IMG/VR virus record: IMGVR_UViG_3300013306_000029
Location: 1 to 41,690 of that record
DNA length: 41,690 nucleotides
Source of the DNA: a virus
Reading direction: 5' to 3' (one strand)
Shown here in pieces: positions 3,352-12,462 of this stretch. Numbering within the stretch: position 1 is the stretch's first letter; every line of letters begins with the position of its first letter. Position numbers and translations under genes: made by a program. Under the pieces are notes generated by a model. That model did no database searches. It was not told where the DNA came from and saw only the letters and a list, made by a program, of their open reading frames with translations.

Positions 3352-3566
3352 GCGGCAGGATGGATGCCGACACTATCCTGCGTAGGTCGCGCACTGGTGA
3401 CCGCTACCACCGCGCCTCTTGCCGTCTCGTCGGCGCCAAGAGCCTGCCGTGGAACTGGGCCGAGGGTCGCTTCCGTGAGGACTTGGACGAGGCCAAGGCG
3501 AACGGTGTCATGCCGTGCAAGGTGTGCGACCCGGACTCTGCACTCCCGAGCAGGGCCGACTCATGA
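3348..3566 (+). CDS. Putative zinc-binding small protein (Ada-like metal motif)
   Basis: 72 aa. The segment YHRASCRLV ... MPCKVCDPD gives an H-x3-C plus C-x2-C arrangement, the kind of small metal-binding fold seen at the N-terminus of Ada and in many phage proteins. Likely binds one zinc ion; partner unknown. ATGA overlaps on both sides. Confidence 0.72.
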   Translation: MSGRMDADTILRRSRTGDRYHRASCRLVGAKSLPWNWAEGRFREDLDEAKANGVMPCKVCDPDSALPSRADS

Positions 3567-3739
3567 TGCGCACAGTCGACTACCTCGACACGGCGCGTGT
3601 GGCACTGGCTGAGGCGCACGCAGCGTTCGACCGGGCCGCCGCACCTGACCTGGCTGAGCGGACGGCTGAGCTCGAGTCCGATGCCAAGGCACGCCGCGAA
3701 CTGGTGGCGCCCGCACCCAGCGACGGGAGCGGGTCATGA
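3563..3739 (+). CDS. Small helical hypothetical protein
   Basis: 58 aa, strongly helical, Ala/Glu/Arg-rich (ARVALAEAHAAFDRAAAPDLAERTAELESDAKARREL). Two in-frame ATGs (3563, 3566); the first is preferred because it makes the ATGA overlap used throughout this operon. No recognised family. Confidence 0.62.
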   Translation: MMRTVDYLDTARVALAEAHAAFDRAAAPDLAERTAELESDAKARRELVAPAPSDGSGS

Positions 3740-4203
3740 GCGCCGACGAACTGCGCCGTGCCGCGAAGGTGCTGCGCGAGCGGGCCGAGGCTGCGACGCC
3801 CGGACCATGGGAGCGCGGGCATCACTGGCACATCCAAGGAGCAACCCACTGCGCCTGCGTCGACGGAGGTCCAGCCAACGAGCGCAACCGGAGCATCAAC
3901 GGCAAGCAGATGCTTTCGCACGCTCACCGCCGCACCGGGGTGACGTGGCCGCACGGCATCAACACCGCCGCTTTGCAGGACGACGGGTTCCCTTACGCCG
4001 TCGTCACCGACTCCGACGAGTACGGGCGGATGCGCAACGAGGACGCCACCTACATTGCGGCCATGCACCCCGGCGTCGGCTCCTTGCTCGCTGACCTGTT
4101 GGAGCACCTAGCCACCGACTATGAGAACGCAGAGGTCGACGGGCGCACTCTGGACCACGCGCTCATGCCGCTCGCCCGCCTGATCCTGGCAGGTGCGTCA
4201 TGA
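3736..4203 (+). CDS. Ead/Ea22-like phage protein
   Basis: 155 aa. Starts with LRRAAKVLRERAEAATPGPW and has near its end NEDATYIAAMHPGVGSLLADLLEHL. This pairing (an opening 'ATPGPW' and a later 'DA-x-IAA-x-P-x-x-x-x-LL-x-x-L') is typical of Ead/Ea22-like early proteins found in many actinophages and lambdoid phages. Biochemical role unknown. The middle part is variable and carries Cys and His residues. ATGA overlaps on both sides. Confidence 0.75.
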   Translation: MSADELRRAAKVLRERAEAATPGPWERGHHWHIQGATHCACVDGGPANERNRSINGKQMLSHAHRRTGVTWPHGINTAALQDDGFPYAVVTDSDEYGRMRNEDATYIAAMHPGVGSLLADLLEHLATDYENAEVDGRTLDHALMPLARLILAGAS

Positions 4204-6675: not shown

Positions 6676-7556
6676 AGCCCGGCAGCCCCGAGTGGGTGCG
6701 GCTCGTCACGGCCAGTAAGGTCGCGGCCATCCTCGGACTCAGCCCATGGGACAGCCCGCGCACGACGTGGCACAAGATGCGCGGCGATCTCCCAAGCGAG
6801 GACGGCAACAACGCTGACGCCAAGTCGCGCGGCCACTACCTCGAAGGCGGCGTGCTCGCATGGTGGGCCGACCGCCACGGGCTGGCCGCTGGCGACCCCA
6901 TCCACCTGACGCAGCAGCCACGACTGACGCTCTCCAACTGGGGTGCCGCCACGCCCGACGCCATGGGCATGGACGACGGCCACGGCAACGCGTTCGTCAT
7001 GGACGCCAAGACGGCGGCCAGCGCCGACGACTGGGGCACGCCCGGCACTGACGAGGCGCCTGCCTACTACGCGGCCCAAGCCATGTGGCAGCTCGCCTGC
7101 CACCCGACCGCATCGGTCGCCTACATCGCGGTCCTGTTCGGCCGTCCACAACTGGAGTTCGCCGAGTACATCATCGAGCGCGACGACGACCTGATCGCGT
7201 CAATCGTGCTGCGCTGCAAGGCATTCCACGACTCACTGACCGACGACGACGCGGCCCCAGCCCTGTCAGACCACGTCGCTGAGTATGACGCGATCCGCAA
7301 GGTGCACGCGGACATCGACCGTGAGGCCGTAGCCGTCATCCCCGACGACCTCGCACACCGCTACCTGACCGACTTGGCGCACGCCGAGCGAGCCGACGCC
7401 ACCAAGGCCCGCGTGCTCGACCTTATGGGCACCGCGCGTCTCGCCAAGACAGAGAGCGGGCTGTTCCTGGCTCGCCGCCAGCCGAAGGGGCAGGCCGTGA
7501 CCCTCGTGCGCACCGCCTCCCTGCCAGCACTCGAACCCATGGAGGAAGCATCATGA
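6672..7556 (+). CDS. YqaJ-type viral recombinase (lambda-exonuclease-like)
   Basis: 294 aa. DNA end-processing nuclease expected to degrade one strand and hand 3' single strands to the annealing protein encoded next. Visible motifs of the YqaJ/lambda exonuclease fold: the opening PGSPEWVRLVTASKVAAILG, a Glu in GHYLEGGVLAWW (E58), the active-site Asp in AATPDAMG (D96) and the D-x-K pair in VMDAKTA (D111, K113). Length fits the family. ATG 6672 is set by the ATGA overlap. The pair with the downstream RecT/Bet-like gene makes a classical phage recombination module. Confidence 0.88.
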   Translation: MKPGSPEWVRLVTASKVAAILGLSPWDSPRTTWHKMRGDLPSEDGNNADAKSRGHYLEGGVLAWWADRHGLAAGDPIHLTQQPRLTLSNWGAATPDAMGMDDGHGNAFVMDAKTAASADDWGTPGTDEAPAYYAAQAMWQLACHPTASVAYIAVLFGRPQLEFAEYIIERDDDLIASIVLRCKAFHDSLTDDDAAPALSDHVAEYDAIRKVHADIDREAVAVIPDDLAHRYLTDLAHAERADATKARVLDLMGTARLAKTESGLFLARRQPKGQAVTLVRTASLPALEPMEEAS

Positions 7557-8518
7557 CCAGCACCGACCTCGCCCTCGCAGACCAGATGGCCTACGCGCAG
7601 GCGGTCGTCCACCAGCCCGAGCCCGGAAAGGGCGGGCAGTCGCTGCTCCCGGCGGCATACCGCGGCAACCCCGCCAACGTGCTCATCGCCATGGGGCTGG
7701 GGCAGGCGCTCGACCTCACCCCGTCGCAGTCGCTGTACGAAATCTATGTGGTCAACGGCAGGCCGTCCCCGTCTGCCAACCTCATGGCTGCTGTCGTGCG
7801 CCGCGCCGGCCACCGCCTCCGCATCAAGGGCGACGCCACCACATGCACCGCCATCCTGATCCGCGCCGACGACCCCGACGAGCCATTCGAGGCAACGTGG
7901 ACGATCGAGCAGGCCCGAGCCGCTGGGCTCGCTGGCAAGGACACGTGGAAGCAGTATCCCGCCGCCATGCTGCGCGCCCGCGCCATCGCTGAGGTTGTCC
8001 GCATGGGCGCGTCTGAGGCTGTGCTCGGCATGGAGTACGCCCGCGAAGAGATGCAGGACGTCGAGCCCGAGCGAACCACCGTCGTGAAGACGGCAGGGGT
8101 CGATGCGCTGCGCGCCGCTGTGGCTGCCGTGCAGCGTCCCAACGCCGCAGACAGCATCAACGTGCAGACGTCGGGTGCGCCGACTGAGGGCTACGAGCAG
8201 CAGCAGACCAACAGTGACGACGACGTCCACGACGCCGAGGAAGTGGCCGACGAGCCCGAGACGGGCGAGCAGATCACCGACGCCCAGCGCCGCAAGATCT
8301 TCCCCCTCTTCACCGAGGCCGGCTTCGACACGTCCGCACAGTCAGCCGAGGGCAAGGCCGCGCGACTCGCGTACATCGCTGGCGTGATCGGTCACCCGGT
8401 CGAGTCCACCAACGACCTGACGAGGGGTCAGGCGTCGCAGGTCATCGAGGCGCTGATCTCGGACGCTGCCAGCCGGGTCGCCATCGAAGAGCCGCCCGCT
8501 GACGAGGCCCAGCAATGA
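7553..8518 (+). CDS. RecT/Bet-like single-strand annealing protein
   Basis: 321 aa. Core domain over residues 1-165, with LMAAVVRRAGHRLRI, a beta-rich middle and YPAAMLRARAIAEVVRMGASE, as in RecT/Redbeta-type annealing proteins of actinophages. Then an acidic linker (about residues 205-240) and a C-terminal helical domain (ITDAQRRKIFPLF ... LTRGQASQVIEAL) seen on other phage proteins of this type. It anneals complementary strands made by the adjacent exonuclease. ATGA overlaps on both sides. RecT versus Erf/Sak-type cannot be settled without a profile search. Confidence 0.78.
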   Translation: MTSTDLALADQMAYAQAVVHQPEPGKGGQSLLPAAYRGNPANVLIAMGLGQALDLTPSQSLYEIYVVNGRPSPSANLMAAVVRRAGHRLRIKGDATTCTAILIRADDPDEPFEATWTIEQARAAGLAGKDTWKQYPAAMLRARAIAEVVRMGASEAVLGMEYAREEMQDVEPERTTVVKTAGVDALRAAVAAVQRPNAADSINVQTSGAPTEGYEQQQTNSDDDVHDAEEVADEPETGEQITDAQRRKIFPLFTEAGFDTSAQSAEGKAARLAYIAGVIGHPVESTNDLTRGQASQVIEALISDAASRVAIEEPPADEAQQ

Positions 8519-9090
8519 GGCCCCGACCGACTCCCTCAGGCGCGACATCCGTGCACCCACACGGGCCTGAGGTCGAGGGGCCGGACGCGCGGGATGAGGA
8601 CTCCTCCCCTCCCCGCCGTCCGGCCAACACCTCAATCAGCTTCATGGTCGAGGGCAACCCTGGCCCGCAAGGCAGCAAGCGTCACGTCGGCAACGGGCGC
8701 ATGATCGAGTCGTCCAAGAAGGTGCGCCCCTGGCGTGACGCTGTCGAGGCCGCGGCGCGGACAGCCATGCAGGAGAGCGGGATTGCCGCCCCGCTGACCG
8801 ATCCCGTGCACGTCATCATCACCTTCACCATGCGGCGCCCCTCGTCGCATTGGGGCACCGGGCGCAACGCCTCAACCCTGCGCCCGTCCGCACCGGACTA
8901 CCCGACGTCGCGCGCAGTGGGCGACTTGGACAAACTATGCCGCTCGACGCTCGACGCACTCACCAGCGCGCGCCTGATCCATGACGACTCGCTCGTCGTC
9001 GGCATCCAAGCGGTAAAGGTCTACTCGGACGGGTCGCGCTTCAACCCCACGGGCGCGCGCATCGAGGTCACGACAGTGGGTTGCTCATGA
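8515..9090 (+). CDS. RusA-family Holliday junction resolvase
   Basis: 191 aa. The RusA domain starts near residue 41 (ISFMVEGNPGPQGSKR) and carries the family's acidic residues in GDLDKLCRSTLDAL (D137, D139, D147) and HDDS (D157, D158), which coordinate the metal that cuts four-way junctions. The first 40 residues are a disordered Pro/Arg/Glu-rich extension; Met44 would give a protein of usual RusA length, but ATG 8515 makes the ATGA overlap and is kept. Completes the exonuclease-annealase-resolvase set. Confidence 0.85.
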   Translation: MRPRPTPSGATSVHPHGPEVEGPDARDEDSSPPRRPANTSISFMVEGNPGPQGSKRHVGNGRMIESSKKVRPWRDAVEAAARTAMQESGIAAPLTDPVHVIITFTMRRPSSHWGTGRNASTLRPSAPDYPTSRAVGDLDKLCRSTLDALTSARLIHDDSLVVGIQAVKVYSDGSRFNPTGARIEVTTVGCS

Positions 9091-9146
9091 CCGGGTGCGA
9101 GGCGTCCGCGTGGGTGCCATGGACCGCTGACGAGGTGGGCACATGA
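9087..9146 (+). CDS. Putative 19-aa peptide ORF
   Basis: A 19-codon ORF that starts in an ATGA overlap with the RusA gene and ends in an ATGA overlap with the methyltransferase gene. Its product would be trivial; it more likely keeps ribosomes moving between two genes (translational coupling). Listed because its two ends follow the operon's rule exactly. Confidence 0.35.
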   Translation: MTGCEASAWVPWTADEVGT

Positions 9147-10585
9147 GGCTCACATACGGCGCCCTGTGCGCTGGGTATTCCGGCCTCGAGATGGGCGTGC
9201 AGTCCGTCCTCGGCGGCGAGCTCGCGTGGTACAGCGAGTTCGACGCCGCACCGTCGCGCATCCTCGCGCACCACCACCCCGACGTGCCCAACTTGGGCGA
9301 CATGACGGCCATCGACTGGCGCAAGGTGCATCCGGTCGACGTCCTCACCGGGGGCACACCCTGCCAAGACCTGAGCCATGCGGGCAAGCGCGCCGGCATG
9401 ACAGACGGCACCCGCTCCAACCTGTGGGTGCAGATGAGAGAGGCCATCCATGTCATCCGACCCAAGCTCGTCGTCTGGGAGAACGTCCGGGGCGCCTACT
9501 CCGCGTGCGCCGATAGCGAAGTGGGACGCTGCCCGCGATGCGTGGGTGACGATCCCCGAGCACGGCACCGACCTTCTCTTCGGGCTCTCGGACGTGTTCT
9601 CGGAGACCTTTCCAGCCTCGGGTATGACGCGAGCTGGTACGGCATACGAGCGTCCGACGTCGGCGCCTGTCACGGACGGTTCCGGGTCTTCGTCTGGGCC
9701 ACTCCTGCCGACGCCGACCACTCAGGATGGGGCGAACACTGGCGGGCCGAGCCAGTTCGACAGGAACAGTCTGCCCCTCAACACGTTCGTGTTGACGCTA
9801 CCGACATGACCCTGCTGCCGACGCCTGCCGTCAACGACATGGGCGCGGGCAAGACGCCTGACGCCTGGGACGCCTGGGACGCCTGGACGGACCGTATGCG
9901 GGCCGAGCACGGCAACGGCAACGGGCACGGCAAGTCGTTGGAGATCGAGGCCCTGCGACTCCTGCCGACGCCGCGCACGAACGGGGCAGGCGCGCACGGT
10001 GACGGCGGAATGGACCTGCGCACTGTCGCCGCACTCCTGCCCACCCCGCGCGCCACTGACGGCACCAAGGGCGGCCCCAACCAGCGCGGTTCGTCAGGCG
10101 ACCTGATGCTGCCGAGCGCCGTGCAGCAGTTGCTGCCGACACCGGCCGCCCATGAACCTGGTGGGACGTTGGCGCAGTACCACGAGAGGTTGCGTCGAAG
10201 TGATGGTCGGAACTCGACGTTCGCCCCGCTGTCCATGGCAGTCCAATCGCAAGACTGGGCACAGTACGAGGCCGCGATACGCCGCCACGAAGACGTCCTC
10301 GGCAGGGCGGCACCCGCACCAACCGAGCCCGGACCCAAGGGTGGCGCACGACTCGCCCCGACCTTCGTCGAGTTCATGATGATGCTGCCCGCAGGCCACG
10401 TCACCAACCCCGCCATCTGGGAGGGCATGACCGACAAGCGCGGGCGCGTACTCACCGGAGATCGGCTCAAGAGCGCGGCACGCAACGCCGAGCTGAAGGC
10501 GCTGGGTAACGGCGTCGTTCCGCTCCAGTGCGCCGCGACGGGCCGCATGTGGCTCGCTGACATGGCTGAGGTGGTGGCCTCGTGA
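9143..10585 (+). CDS. DNA cytosine-C5 methyltransferase
   Basis: 480 aa. Transfers methyl from S-adenosylmethionine to cytosine, probably to protect phage DNA from host restriction. Motifs: SAM-binding start LCAGYSGLEMG (residues 8-18), catalytic TPCQD (Cys74), ENV (113-115), RFRVF (179-183) and the C-terminal motif RNAELKALGNGVVPLQ. Between residues about 220 and 400 is a long insert with repeated LLPTP units (four visible), characteristic of actinophage enzymes; recognition specificity is unknown. From 9450 to 9809 a second reading frame with protein-like content is embedded (separate entry), and an in-frame ATG at 9806 forms an ATGA with its stop. No partner endonuclease is nearby, so it is an orphan enzyme. 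Confidence 0.9.
   Translation: MRLTYGALCAGYSGLEMGVQSVLGGELAWYSEFDAAPSRILAHHHPDVPNLGDMTAIDWRKVHPVDVLTGGTPCQDLSHAGKRAGMTDGTRSNLWVQMREAIHVIRPKLVVWENVRGAYSACADSEVGRCPRCVGDDPRARHRPSLRALGRVLGDLSSLGYDASWYGIRASDVGACHGRFRVFVWATPADADHSGWGEHWRAEPVRQEQSAPQHVRVDATDMTLLPTPAVNDMGAGKTPDAWDAWDAWTDRMRAEHGNGNGHGKSLEIEALRLLPTPRTNGAGAHGDGGMDLRTVAALLPTPRATDGTKGGPNQRGSSGDLMLPSAVQQLLPTPAAHEPGGTLAQYHERLRRSDGRNSTFAPLSMAVQSQDWAQYEAAIRRHEDVLGRAAPAPTEPGPKGGARLAPTFVEFMMMLPAGHVTNPAIWEGMTDKRGRVLTGDRLKSAARNAELKALGNGVVPLQCAATGRMWLADMAEVVAS
9450..9809 (+). CDS. Embedded ORF in the +1 frame inside the methyltransferase gene
   Basis: 119 codons, entirely inside the methyltransferase gene. ATG 9450 has AGAGAGG six bases upstream. 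Its product contains KWDAARDAWVTIP, SETFPASGMTRAGTAYERP and LLPTPTTQDGAN, which I recognise as the segment that precedes the LLPTP-repeat region in related actinophage methylase proteins. Its stop overlaps an in-frame ATG of the methyltransferase (9806) as ATGA, so its ribosomes could continue into the C-terminal part. Codon use supports it: over 30 codons (9516-9605) third-position G/C is 27/30 in this frame against 14/30 in the methyltransferase frame. It may be a real overlapping gene or the trace of a frame switch. Confidence 0.5.
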   Translation: MSSDPSSSSGRTSGAPTPRAPIAKWDAARDAWVTIPEHGTDLLFGLSDVFSETFPASGMTRAGTAYERPTSAPVTDGSGSSSGPLLPTPTTQDGANTGGPSQFDRNSLPLNTFVLTLPT

Positions 10586-10860: not shown

Positions 10861-11091
10861 TCAGCCCTTTCCGTCGCTGGTCGCCATGAACGTGTCGTGG
10901 CACTCGCAGTGGATGGAGACCTTGCCGGGGTAGTCCCAGCGCTTGGCGATGGCGTGCCCGTTGGCGCTCACGTGCGCGTCGGCCGCCTCGGTCACGATGC
11001 GCACCGCTACCTCGCGGGTGACCGTGCTCTCGATGACGTTGCGGTCCACGTCGCCCTTGCTGGTGTGTACGAACTCAGTCGCGGTCCACAT
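10861..11091 (-). CDS. Hypothetical protein, first gene of leftward cassette
   Basis: 76 aa. ATG 11091 has GAGGAG five bases upstream. The sequence looks like a compact alpha/beta protein (NVIESTVTREVAVRIVTEAADAH, then YPGKVSIHCECHDTF) with a Cys/His cluster HCECH that could bind metal. Family not recognised. It is transcribed leftward from the region holding two GTATATAC palindromes and is followed directly by the RHH gene. Confidence 0.7.
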   Translation of the reverse strand: MWTATEFVHTSKGDVDRNVIESTVTREVAVRIVTEAADAHVSANGHAIAKRWDYPGKVSIHCECHDTFMATSDGKG

Positions 11092-11180: not shown

Positions 11181-11480
11181 ATGATCCACGCGCGCAACGC
11201 ACGGCCACACCCGACGCTCGAAACCGACCACGGCGACGACTGGCGCGACGAGGCCCGTTGCCTACGTGCCGACCCCGAGCTGTTCGTGCCCCCTGGCTCG
11301 TCATGGCAGGGCCACGAGTACCAGGAGGCCGCGGCCAAGGCGTACTGCGCCCTATGCCCGTCCGTCGCCCCGTGTCTCGCGTGGGCGCTCGAGGTGGGCG
11401 ACGAGTGGGCCGTGCTGGGCGACACCAACCCCAACGAACGACGCGCCATCAAACGCAAGGAAGCAAGGGCGAGCGCATGA
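11181..11480 (+). CDS. WhiB-like iron-sulfur transcription regulator
   Basis: 99 aa. Four cysteines in Wbl spacing: C27 in EARCLRADPELF, C56-x2-C59 in YCALCP and C65 in APCLAWAL, which would hold a [4Fe-4S] cluster. The usual GVWGG turn is changed to EWAVLG, and a basic end (NERRAIKRKEARA) may bind DNA. Wbl proteins bind the primary sigma factor and alter promoter choice; phage versions can act on host wbl targets. ATG 11181 is preferred; the frame is open upstream through the operator sites. ATGA overlap with the next gene. Confidence 0.88.
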   Translation: MIHARNARPHPTLETDHGDDWRDEARCLRADPELFVPPGSSWQGHEYQEAAAKAYCALCPSVAPCLAWALEVGDEWAVLGDTNPNERRAIKRKEARASA

Positions 11481-12019
11481 ACGTCACCGGCTCAACCCTC
11501 GCAGGCGGCACCCTCTGCGGCGCGCACGTACCCCTGCCGCCGACCACCACCTACCGGGCCGCCACACCCCGCCCACGCGGACTCGACTGGGCCGCACACA
11601 CCGCACCCGTCGACCACGCCGCCATCGCACAGGCGCGCGCCATCCGCCGAGCCAAGGCAGCGCCTAAGCCCAAGAATGCACCCGCCAAGAGCGCCATCAA
11701 GCTCGACGTCGCACGCATCCTCGAGCTCGCTGCGGCCGGCCTGAACACGGCCCAGATAGCCGCTGAGATTGGGTGCGCATGGTCGTCCGCGCGGGCCCAT
11801 CTGGAGCACGCCGGGGTGGTCGCGACCAACGGCCACAGCCAGCGCAAGCCCATCCCTGACGCCGAGAAGATGGCCGCCGAATACCTCGCAGGCGACGGAA
11901 TCCGGGCCATTGCGACGCGCTACGGCATCGCTCGGGAGACGGTTCGGCGCCGCATCCGAGGCACTGGGACGCCGATGCGCCCGAGTGGACCGGCTAGGCG
12001 CATCGGGGGTCCCAACTGA
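11477..12019 (+). CDS. Protein with two helix-turn-helix segments
   Basis: 180 aa. A Pro/Ala-rich N-terminal half, then two HTH-like segments: ARILELAAAGLNTAQIAAEIG and MAAEYLAGDGIRAIATRYG followed by RETVRRRIRGTGTPMR. The second resembles resolvase/homeodomain-like helices that read DNA with an arm ending in TPMRP. Likely a DNA-binding protein of the replication or regulatory block. ATG 11477 is fixed by the ATGA overlap; TGATG junction to the next gene. Confidence 0.75.
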   Translation: MNVTGSTLAGGTLCGAHVPLPPTTTYRAATPRPRGLDWAAHTAPVDHAAIAQARAIRRAKAAPKPKNAPAKSAIKLDVARILELAAAGLNTAQIAAEIGCAWSSARAHLEHAGVVATNGHSQRKPIPDAEKMAAEYLAGDGIRAIATRYGIARETVRRRIRGTGTPMRPSGPARRIGGPN

Positions 12020-12462
12020 TGGCGCGCAAGAGAATGTTGGCCCCTGAGTTCTTCACGAGCGCCACGATGAACGCCGTTTCCGTCGAAGCGATGCTCACTT
12101 TCGCCGGCATTTGGTGCTGGGCCGACGACTTTGGACGCGGCGAGAACGACGAAACGCTCATGAAGTCCGCGATCTGGCCGAGGCGACGCTCAGTAACCGA
12201 CAGGAAGGTTCGCGGGTTTGTCGACGAACTCATCATGTCTCGGGTGCTCTGCGCCTATGCCGTCAACGGCATCAGCTTGGTCCACGTCACGTCATGGCGT
12301 GAGCACCAAAAGATAAGCCACCCAACGAAATCCAAGCTTGCGCCCTGCCAGGAACACGAGCCCGAGGCATGGACTGCGTTCGCCATCGACAACGACCACG
12401 CCCTAGCCAAATTCCGGAGCGATTCCGGAACGGCTCCCGAATGGATTCGGAGCGTCTCGTGA
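12019..12462 (+). CDS. DnaD-like/winged-helix replication initiator
   Basis: 147 aa. The start MARKRMLAPEFF, then a region around WCWADDFGRGENDETLMKSAIWP and VHVTSWREHQKISHPTKSK match the N-terminal domain of phage replication initiators that load host helicase at the origin. It is short: such proteins often have a C-terminal DnaD/helicase-loader domain that is missing here. The gene's 3' end carries repeated TCCGGAxCG units (12413-12454), suggesting the origin lies inside the gene. The next ORF starts in a GTGA overlap. Confidence 0.72.
   Translation: MARKRMLAPEFFTSATMNAVSVEAMLTFAGIWCWADDFGRGENDETLMKSAIWPRRRSVTDRKVRGFVDELIMSRVLCAYAVNGISLVHVTSWREHQKISHPTKSKLAPCQEHEPEAWTAFAIDNDHALAKFRSDSGTAPEWIRSVS

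Follow-up and report, generated by a model that had tools for sequence, protein, structure and literature searches.

A cytosine methyltransferase gene (ORF A) in a virus record from IMG/VR most probably contains a second gene (ORF B), a genuine and conserved one that overlaps it on the same strand and is read from its own start inside it. Judging from sequence comparison, we put the probability of this reading at about 0.8. The window, meaning the whole 41,690-nucleotide stretch of DNA that was analysed, has the following features at and around the pair (strands are given for the pair and its signals).

7553–8518: RecT-like gene, a neighbour of ORF A
8515–9090: RusA-like gene, a neighbour of ORF A
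9143–10585, plus strand: ORF A, C5 cytosine methyltransferase of 480 aa, with motifs I–VIII in residues 1–190, then LLPTP modules, then motifs IX–X at about residues 371–480
9437–9443, plus strand: AGAGAGG, candidate Shine-Dalgarno (SD) sequence of ORF B, six bases before ATG 9450
9450–9452, plus strand: ATG at which ORF B starts; the start site usual in the family lies 51 bases further downstream
9450–9809, plus strand: ORF B, embedded in the +1 frame of ORF A, 119 aa with an ATG start, consisting of an N-terminal extension, block B and one LLPTP module
9485–9505, plus strand: site of the usual family start signal for B, placed by the codon columns of 79 loci
9513–9716, plus strand: block B (KWDAARDAW...FSETFPASGMTRAGTAYERPTSAPVTDGSGSSSGPLLPTP), placed by alignment and HMM matches
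9702–9806, plus strand: first LLPTP module, in frame B (LLPTPTTQDGANTGGPSQFDRNSLPLNTFVLTLPT), from the translation
9806–9809, plus strand: ATGA, in which the ORF B stop TGA (9807–9809) overlaps an in-frame ATG of ORF A (9806–9808)
9806–10252, plus strand: further LLPTP modules, in frame A, from the translation and module counts
11184–11480: WhiB-like gene, a neighbour of ORF A
12019–12462: replication-initiator-like gene, a neighbour of ORF A

Given the RecT-, RusA-, WhiB- and replication-initiator-like neighbours, the virus is likely an actinophage. A minus-strand ORF of 76 codons downstream of the methyltransferase (10861–11091) had no family match.

ORF A is open over the whole of 9143–10585 and matched Pfam DNA_methylase (3.6e-25), phrog_363 (1e-60) and, in Foldseek, the M.HhaI and M.HaeIII structures (E 3.5e-11). 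Its translation carries PCQD, ENV and GRFRVF, which place it among C5 methyltransferases for motifs I–VIII, and its EFMM...GNGVV region aligns with the motifs IX–X of relatives. An AlphaFold model of ORF A has two folded blocks, one of them holding motifs IX–X, with a disordered middle; residues 201–242 and 261–368 were predicted to be disordered in this model, which drew on a shallow alignment of 15. The original prediction had assigned LGYDASWYGIRASDVG and RFRVF to ORF A and KWDAARDAWVTIP, FPASGMTRAGTAYERP and LLPTPTTQDGAN to ORF B, and all of them are present in the translations.

ORF B is open across 9450–9809. Its block B is dual-coded with ORF A residues of about 124–190, the motif VIII region, and its first LLPTP module lies in frame B in split relatives (described below) as well. 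Earlier hand counts of third-position G/C over 9516–9605 proved exact, at 27/30 in ORF B versus 14/30 in ORF A; ORF A has 92/102 at 9143–9449 and 214/259 beyond 9809. ORF B had no match in Pfam or NCBIfam, and its sole family match was phrog_1008 (6.9e-11, ORF B residues 16–101 against profile positions 67–150). That family is named 'DNA methyltransferase', and B products match most of its length; the name thus covers B-frame products, and PHROGs records no overlap with another gene. The block B model had low confidence (block means of pLDDT about 40–70), and a search of solved folds with block B gave only weak matches (E > 0.9), several of them DNMT3 chains. The LLPTP modules were also considered as TALE-type repeats, but a PDB sequence search gave E 0.02, which is not significant.

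Homologues of the +1 product are abundant. By tblastn, ORF B matched 189 phage records, nearly all with actinobacterial hosts. We fetched 191 loci, about 110 of them through the block-B query alone, and HMM searches of these detected 187 copies of block B, every one in the +1 frame of a methyltransferase. The original prediction had suggested looking for separate orthologues of the +1 product; none turned up among the 187 matches in the searched loci, each copy overlapping a methyltransferase. Three further weak matches without a methyltransferase (L202, L209 and L210) looked like chance and were rejected as stand-alone copies of block B. The same +1 relation was found on a Leptospira plasmid, on a Candidatus Megaera plasmid and in Paenibacillus phages. 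In genome samples, 8/398 genomes from the phylum to which a Kiloniellaceae MAG belongs and 10/296 from that of Nocardioides had a match, most of them in the +1 relation to a methyltransferase. In this gene family overlap is the norm, in phages as well as in prophage-like loci from widely differing bacteria, with the sequence support for block B appearing weaker outside actinophage-like loci. Tweety (L003) has two methyltransferase genes of the family, 69 and 72, both with block B in the +1 frame. In Polka14 (L191, around 1097–1656) there is a frame-A stop upstream of ENV, with block B and its start intact; frame A may be broken or misassembled there.

Codon and substitution patterns indicate that both frames are under purifying selection in the overlap. 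For 63 diverse loci under 90% identity, we randomised A with synonymous codons and compared the +1 frame with this null. Over A residues 122–186 the +1 frame had 0 stops versus 65.4 ± 7.6 expected, compared with 79 versus 90 and 146 versus 132 expected in two upstream control regions; a 204-locus test likewise gave 0 stops versus 229 expected. Mean pair BLOSUM of the +1 frame over residues 122–186 was 2.46 versus a null of 0.74, the upstream controls showing a like but smaller excess (1.18 versus 0.92 and 1.31 versus 0.81). The 63-locus stop and BLOSUM test is independent of the block-B profile; since the loci are related, z-scores from the randomisation may be inflated and are not exact probabilities, and the upstream regions are the control for this.

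The constraint is also visible in frame A, where synonymous variation turned out to be reduced and not ordinary: codon diversity in the overlap was 0.60 of that expected versus 0.83–0.91 upstream (p 1.8e-7). Counted over 28 independent close pairs, the third position of A took 67% of substitutions upstream, 38% in residues 122–150 and 65% in residues 151–186. In residues 122–150, the first position of A, which is the third of B, took 41%, and B was conserved more than A (2.76 versus 2.43). This substitution pattern points to a tighter constraint from B in the first half of the overlap than in its second half.

Against a block-B profile from which the window had been left out, the window's ORF B scored 93.0 bits; 100 synonymous rewrites of A gave 26.5 ± 7.7, and not one equalled it (z 8.6). 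Wherever the tested stretch reached 57 codons, the listed locus outscored all 100 of its rewrites, in a comparison where many of the tested loci were included in the profile; about 14 loci were uninformative, as a fragmented methyltransferase match left no more than 21 residues to compare. Homologues, reduced synonymous variation in A and a recurring frame switch all agree with the proposal of a genuine overlapping gene, and none of the three tests put forward with the original prediction (for homologues in other phages, for ordinary synonymous variation in A and for an indel near 9800) refuted the overlap.

Across the family, B has a start signal of its own. Its usual site is at ENVRGAYSA in A, where the codons GTN AGR GGR GCC TAC AGT GCC, read in the +1 frame, give a Shine-Dalgarno sequence, a spacer and GTG. 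This signal is present in 45/63 loci and is formed from rare codons of A: R116 is encoded by AGA or AGG in 43/62 cases versus 118/918 elsewhere (p 3e-22), and S120 by AGT in 44/61 versus 49/644 elsewhere (p 5e-30). Mean anti-SD energy at the usual GTG was −8.4 (45 loci) versus a background of −2.7. Most loci without the usual GTG have alternative starts whose SD energy is around −7 or stronger, such as a GTG twelve bases upstream, or an ATG thirty bases downstream after GAGGAGG. Altogether, 54/63 loci have a B start with an SD of −7 kcal/mol or below, versus 11.4 expected; in L023, L025, L030 and L031 the starts were weaker or none was clear.

In the window, 9485–9505 reads GTC CGG GGC GCC TAC TCC GCG, and the usual SD and GTG are lost. 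The AGAGAGG that the original prediction had noted six bases before the ATG of B is indeed at 9437–9443, with an anti-SD energy of −8.5 kcal/mol. Since 8.7% of synonymous rewrites match or beat this start (p about 0.09), ATG 9450 with AGAGAGG is suggestive as a replacement start and by itself not significant; the own start for the inner frame is thus a feature of the family, and in the window alone a suggestive one.

These observations bear on whether B, real in the family at large, is a decaying relic in the window, its start lost after the modules and motifs IX–X moved to A. Besides the lost signal and the non-significant replacement, the truncation of B after one module would fit such decay. 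We nevertheless regard it as unlikely, though deserving of weight: the window's B has no stops, block B is intact at the score given above, the alternative start is strong, and other window-like loci keep B, with L002, L036 and L062 retaining the usual GTG.

The overlap of the B stop with an in-frame ATG of A, as ATGA at 9806–9809, was also as described in the original prediction. It lies two codons before the first frame-A LLPTP and is a possible re-initiation site. At the same junction, ATGA occurs in phage PFR1 (L005) and a GTG overlap in L011 and L069; most other loci lack it, and re-initiation at ATGA is therefore not a family rule.

The 63 loci fall into three main architectures. In split loci (22/63), A stops near residue 182–237 and B comprises block B, the modules and motifs IX–X, so that motifs I–VIII and IX–X are on separate chains, which is not the case in the window, where both are on A. 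In nested loci (24/63), motifs IX–X are in A and B comprises block B and the modules, mostly ending within the IX–X region of A and often at CTA-AGC of HRLSP. In window-like loci (8/63), which include the finished genomes of a Gordonia phage (Stultus) and an Actinomyces phage (xhp1), modules and motifs IX–X are both in A, and in most of them B ends where a frame-A LLPTP module begins. The other nine loci (9/63) have another or a cut architecture. A tree of A residues 1–118 implied about 9 architecture changes, with many unresolved forks, and the comparison across loci shows repeated switches in the frame that encodes the downstream modules. Over these residues no relative exceeded about 76% identity to the window. 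The original prediction had offered, as its second option, that two genes overlapped ancestrally and that the second later became re-joined to the first. Beyond the overlap this remains compatible with the varied architectures; within the overlap, the evidence favours a genuine gene.

Two minor features of nested loci were noted. Frame A can be open for hundreds of codons over the B modules as a low-complexity linker (L047 among others), and both frames seem to be open across the LLPTP module cassettes. The B C-termini of L004, L012, L046 and L047 are GQxxLL-type tails (for example, LPGQQSLLD) over conserved A sequence, which we take to be reminiscent of sliding-clamp binding motifs.

Programmed +1 ribosomal frameshifting from A into B, with the overlap as the run-up to a shift site and one fusion enzyme as the product, was among the options proposed for Corndog (PMC4351075). 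It would yield a whole enzyme from split loci, whose motifs I–VIII are in A and IX–X in B. We consider it improbable, because the B frame has its own conserved SD and start codon and, ahead of any A stop, is conserved across more than 60 codons that a shift would not need. By eye there was no common motif at the A stops of 27 split loci, and nested loci would require two shifts.

Could the B-frame resemblance be a by-product of methyltransferase conservation, B being no gene? Synonymous rewrites of A still scored about 10–45 bits against block B where the tested stretch was long, which shows that the methyltransferase's own codons account for part of the motif, and a few distant loci were not clearly above the null (2/100, 2/100 and 10/100 rewrites reached the real score in L186, L199 and L200, which are marginal). 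This explanation is nonetheless very improbable against the absence of stops in both tests, the excess over all rewrites wherever at least 57 codons were tested, and the shift in substitution pattern and codon diversity at the overlap. That an indel error of sequencing or assembly near 9800 split a single B gene is scarcely credible: at 9806 the modules do pass from frame B into frame A, but the same layout recurs in 8/63 loci, finished genomes among them, and B mostly ends there at the start of a frame-A module, which marks the switch as natural.

Under the preferred reading, a conserved overlapping gene pair, frame A would be translated from its own start into the C5 cytosine methyltransferase, and frame B into a second protein from its own ribosome-binding site inside A, so that one message would yield both products; B is likely to be initiated independently, inside A. 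B would pass through 60–70 codons shared with the motif VIII region of A and then the LLPTP modules. In split relatives it would continue into methyltransferase motifs IX–X, both chains then being needed for the full motif set, as in M.AquI (PMC3404938). In the window, A alone would carry all catalytic motifs, and B would be a short partner of 119 aa made from ATG 9450.

We infer that B is a partner subunit of methyltransferase A. More weakly, B might supply or shape recognition of the DNA target, since motifs VIII and IX of the predicted A chain have no folded domain for recognition between them; with block B modelled at low confidence and matching no solved fold, structure backs neither the subunit nor the recognition role. 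The scores of the rewrites point to a block-B motif latent in the +1 frame of the methyltransferase, and both this latency and the lack of a free-standing copy in the searched loci fit a birth of B by overprinting of the methyltransferase, the origin that we infer. Only tentatively, and with more doubt than belief, block B may be seen as a domain overprinted on the motif VIII region that has spread through phages and mobile elements across several bacterial phyla, never leaving the overlap, and serves its host enzyme as a specificity subunit in trans.

The pairs of Cluster O mycobacteriophages, including Corndog, belong to the same family, with the N- and C-parts of the methyltransferase in overlapping ORFs (PMC4351075). 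For Corndog gp7/gp6, the best ribosome-binding site of the second gene was inside the first and the overlap had coding potential; RT-PCR gave no sign of splicing, the products of the pair were not seen by mass spectrometry, and whether there are two products or else a frameshift, hop or intron was left undecided in 2015 (PMC4351075). The annotated pair of Krili (Corndogvirus) has the +1 relation of the window, although the C-part is in the overlapping second ORF in Corndog and in frame A in the window. M.AquI is composed of two chains, the division falling between motifs VIII and IX as in split relatives, but no long dual-coded stretch is described for it in PMC3404938, and the window's A chain has all motifs. 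M.EcoHK31I also has two chains, the larger with motifs I–VIII and X and the smaller contributing motif IX (PMC3404938), whereas in nested and window-like loci the large chain holds motifs IX–X and B consists of block B and modules.

Overlapping pairs are annotated in the Andrew, Leona, ArV1, Krili, Anthony and Bloom records, and in the Jamun and Abidatro records the second gene was started after the first ends. Annotation pipelines tend to reject long same-strand overlaps, and to our knowledge such overlaps with both frames conserved have seldom been documented in tailed phages. Relative to the open-licence papers, what is new is the start signal, the testing of selection, the finding that the +1 relation is universal and the division into three architectures. 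The overlap rule gives a basis for re-annotating the gene family and helps settle the question raised in 2015 for one mycobacteriophage group, and the family is a case in which the birth of a protein by overprinting can be traced in many lineages.

An out-of-frame protein inside a mycobacteriophage methylase is likewise known from ShiLan, where it is an inserted HNH homing endonuclease domain of patchy distribution (PMC11855218). Block B is unlike it in being native sequence, neither an insert nor HNH; an HNH insertion of this type was rejected for ORF B, which has no Pfam match and overlaps conserved native motif VIII sequence. Insertions were seen nearby in other loci. In L089 (about 3366–3850), an insert just after ENVRGAYSA reads GLIDGEGCIHL, is LAGLIDADG-like and breaks the methyltransferase, and Gordonia phages have LAGLIDADG or HNH genes annotated in the same region. 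Homing elements may target the region where B starts.
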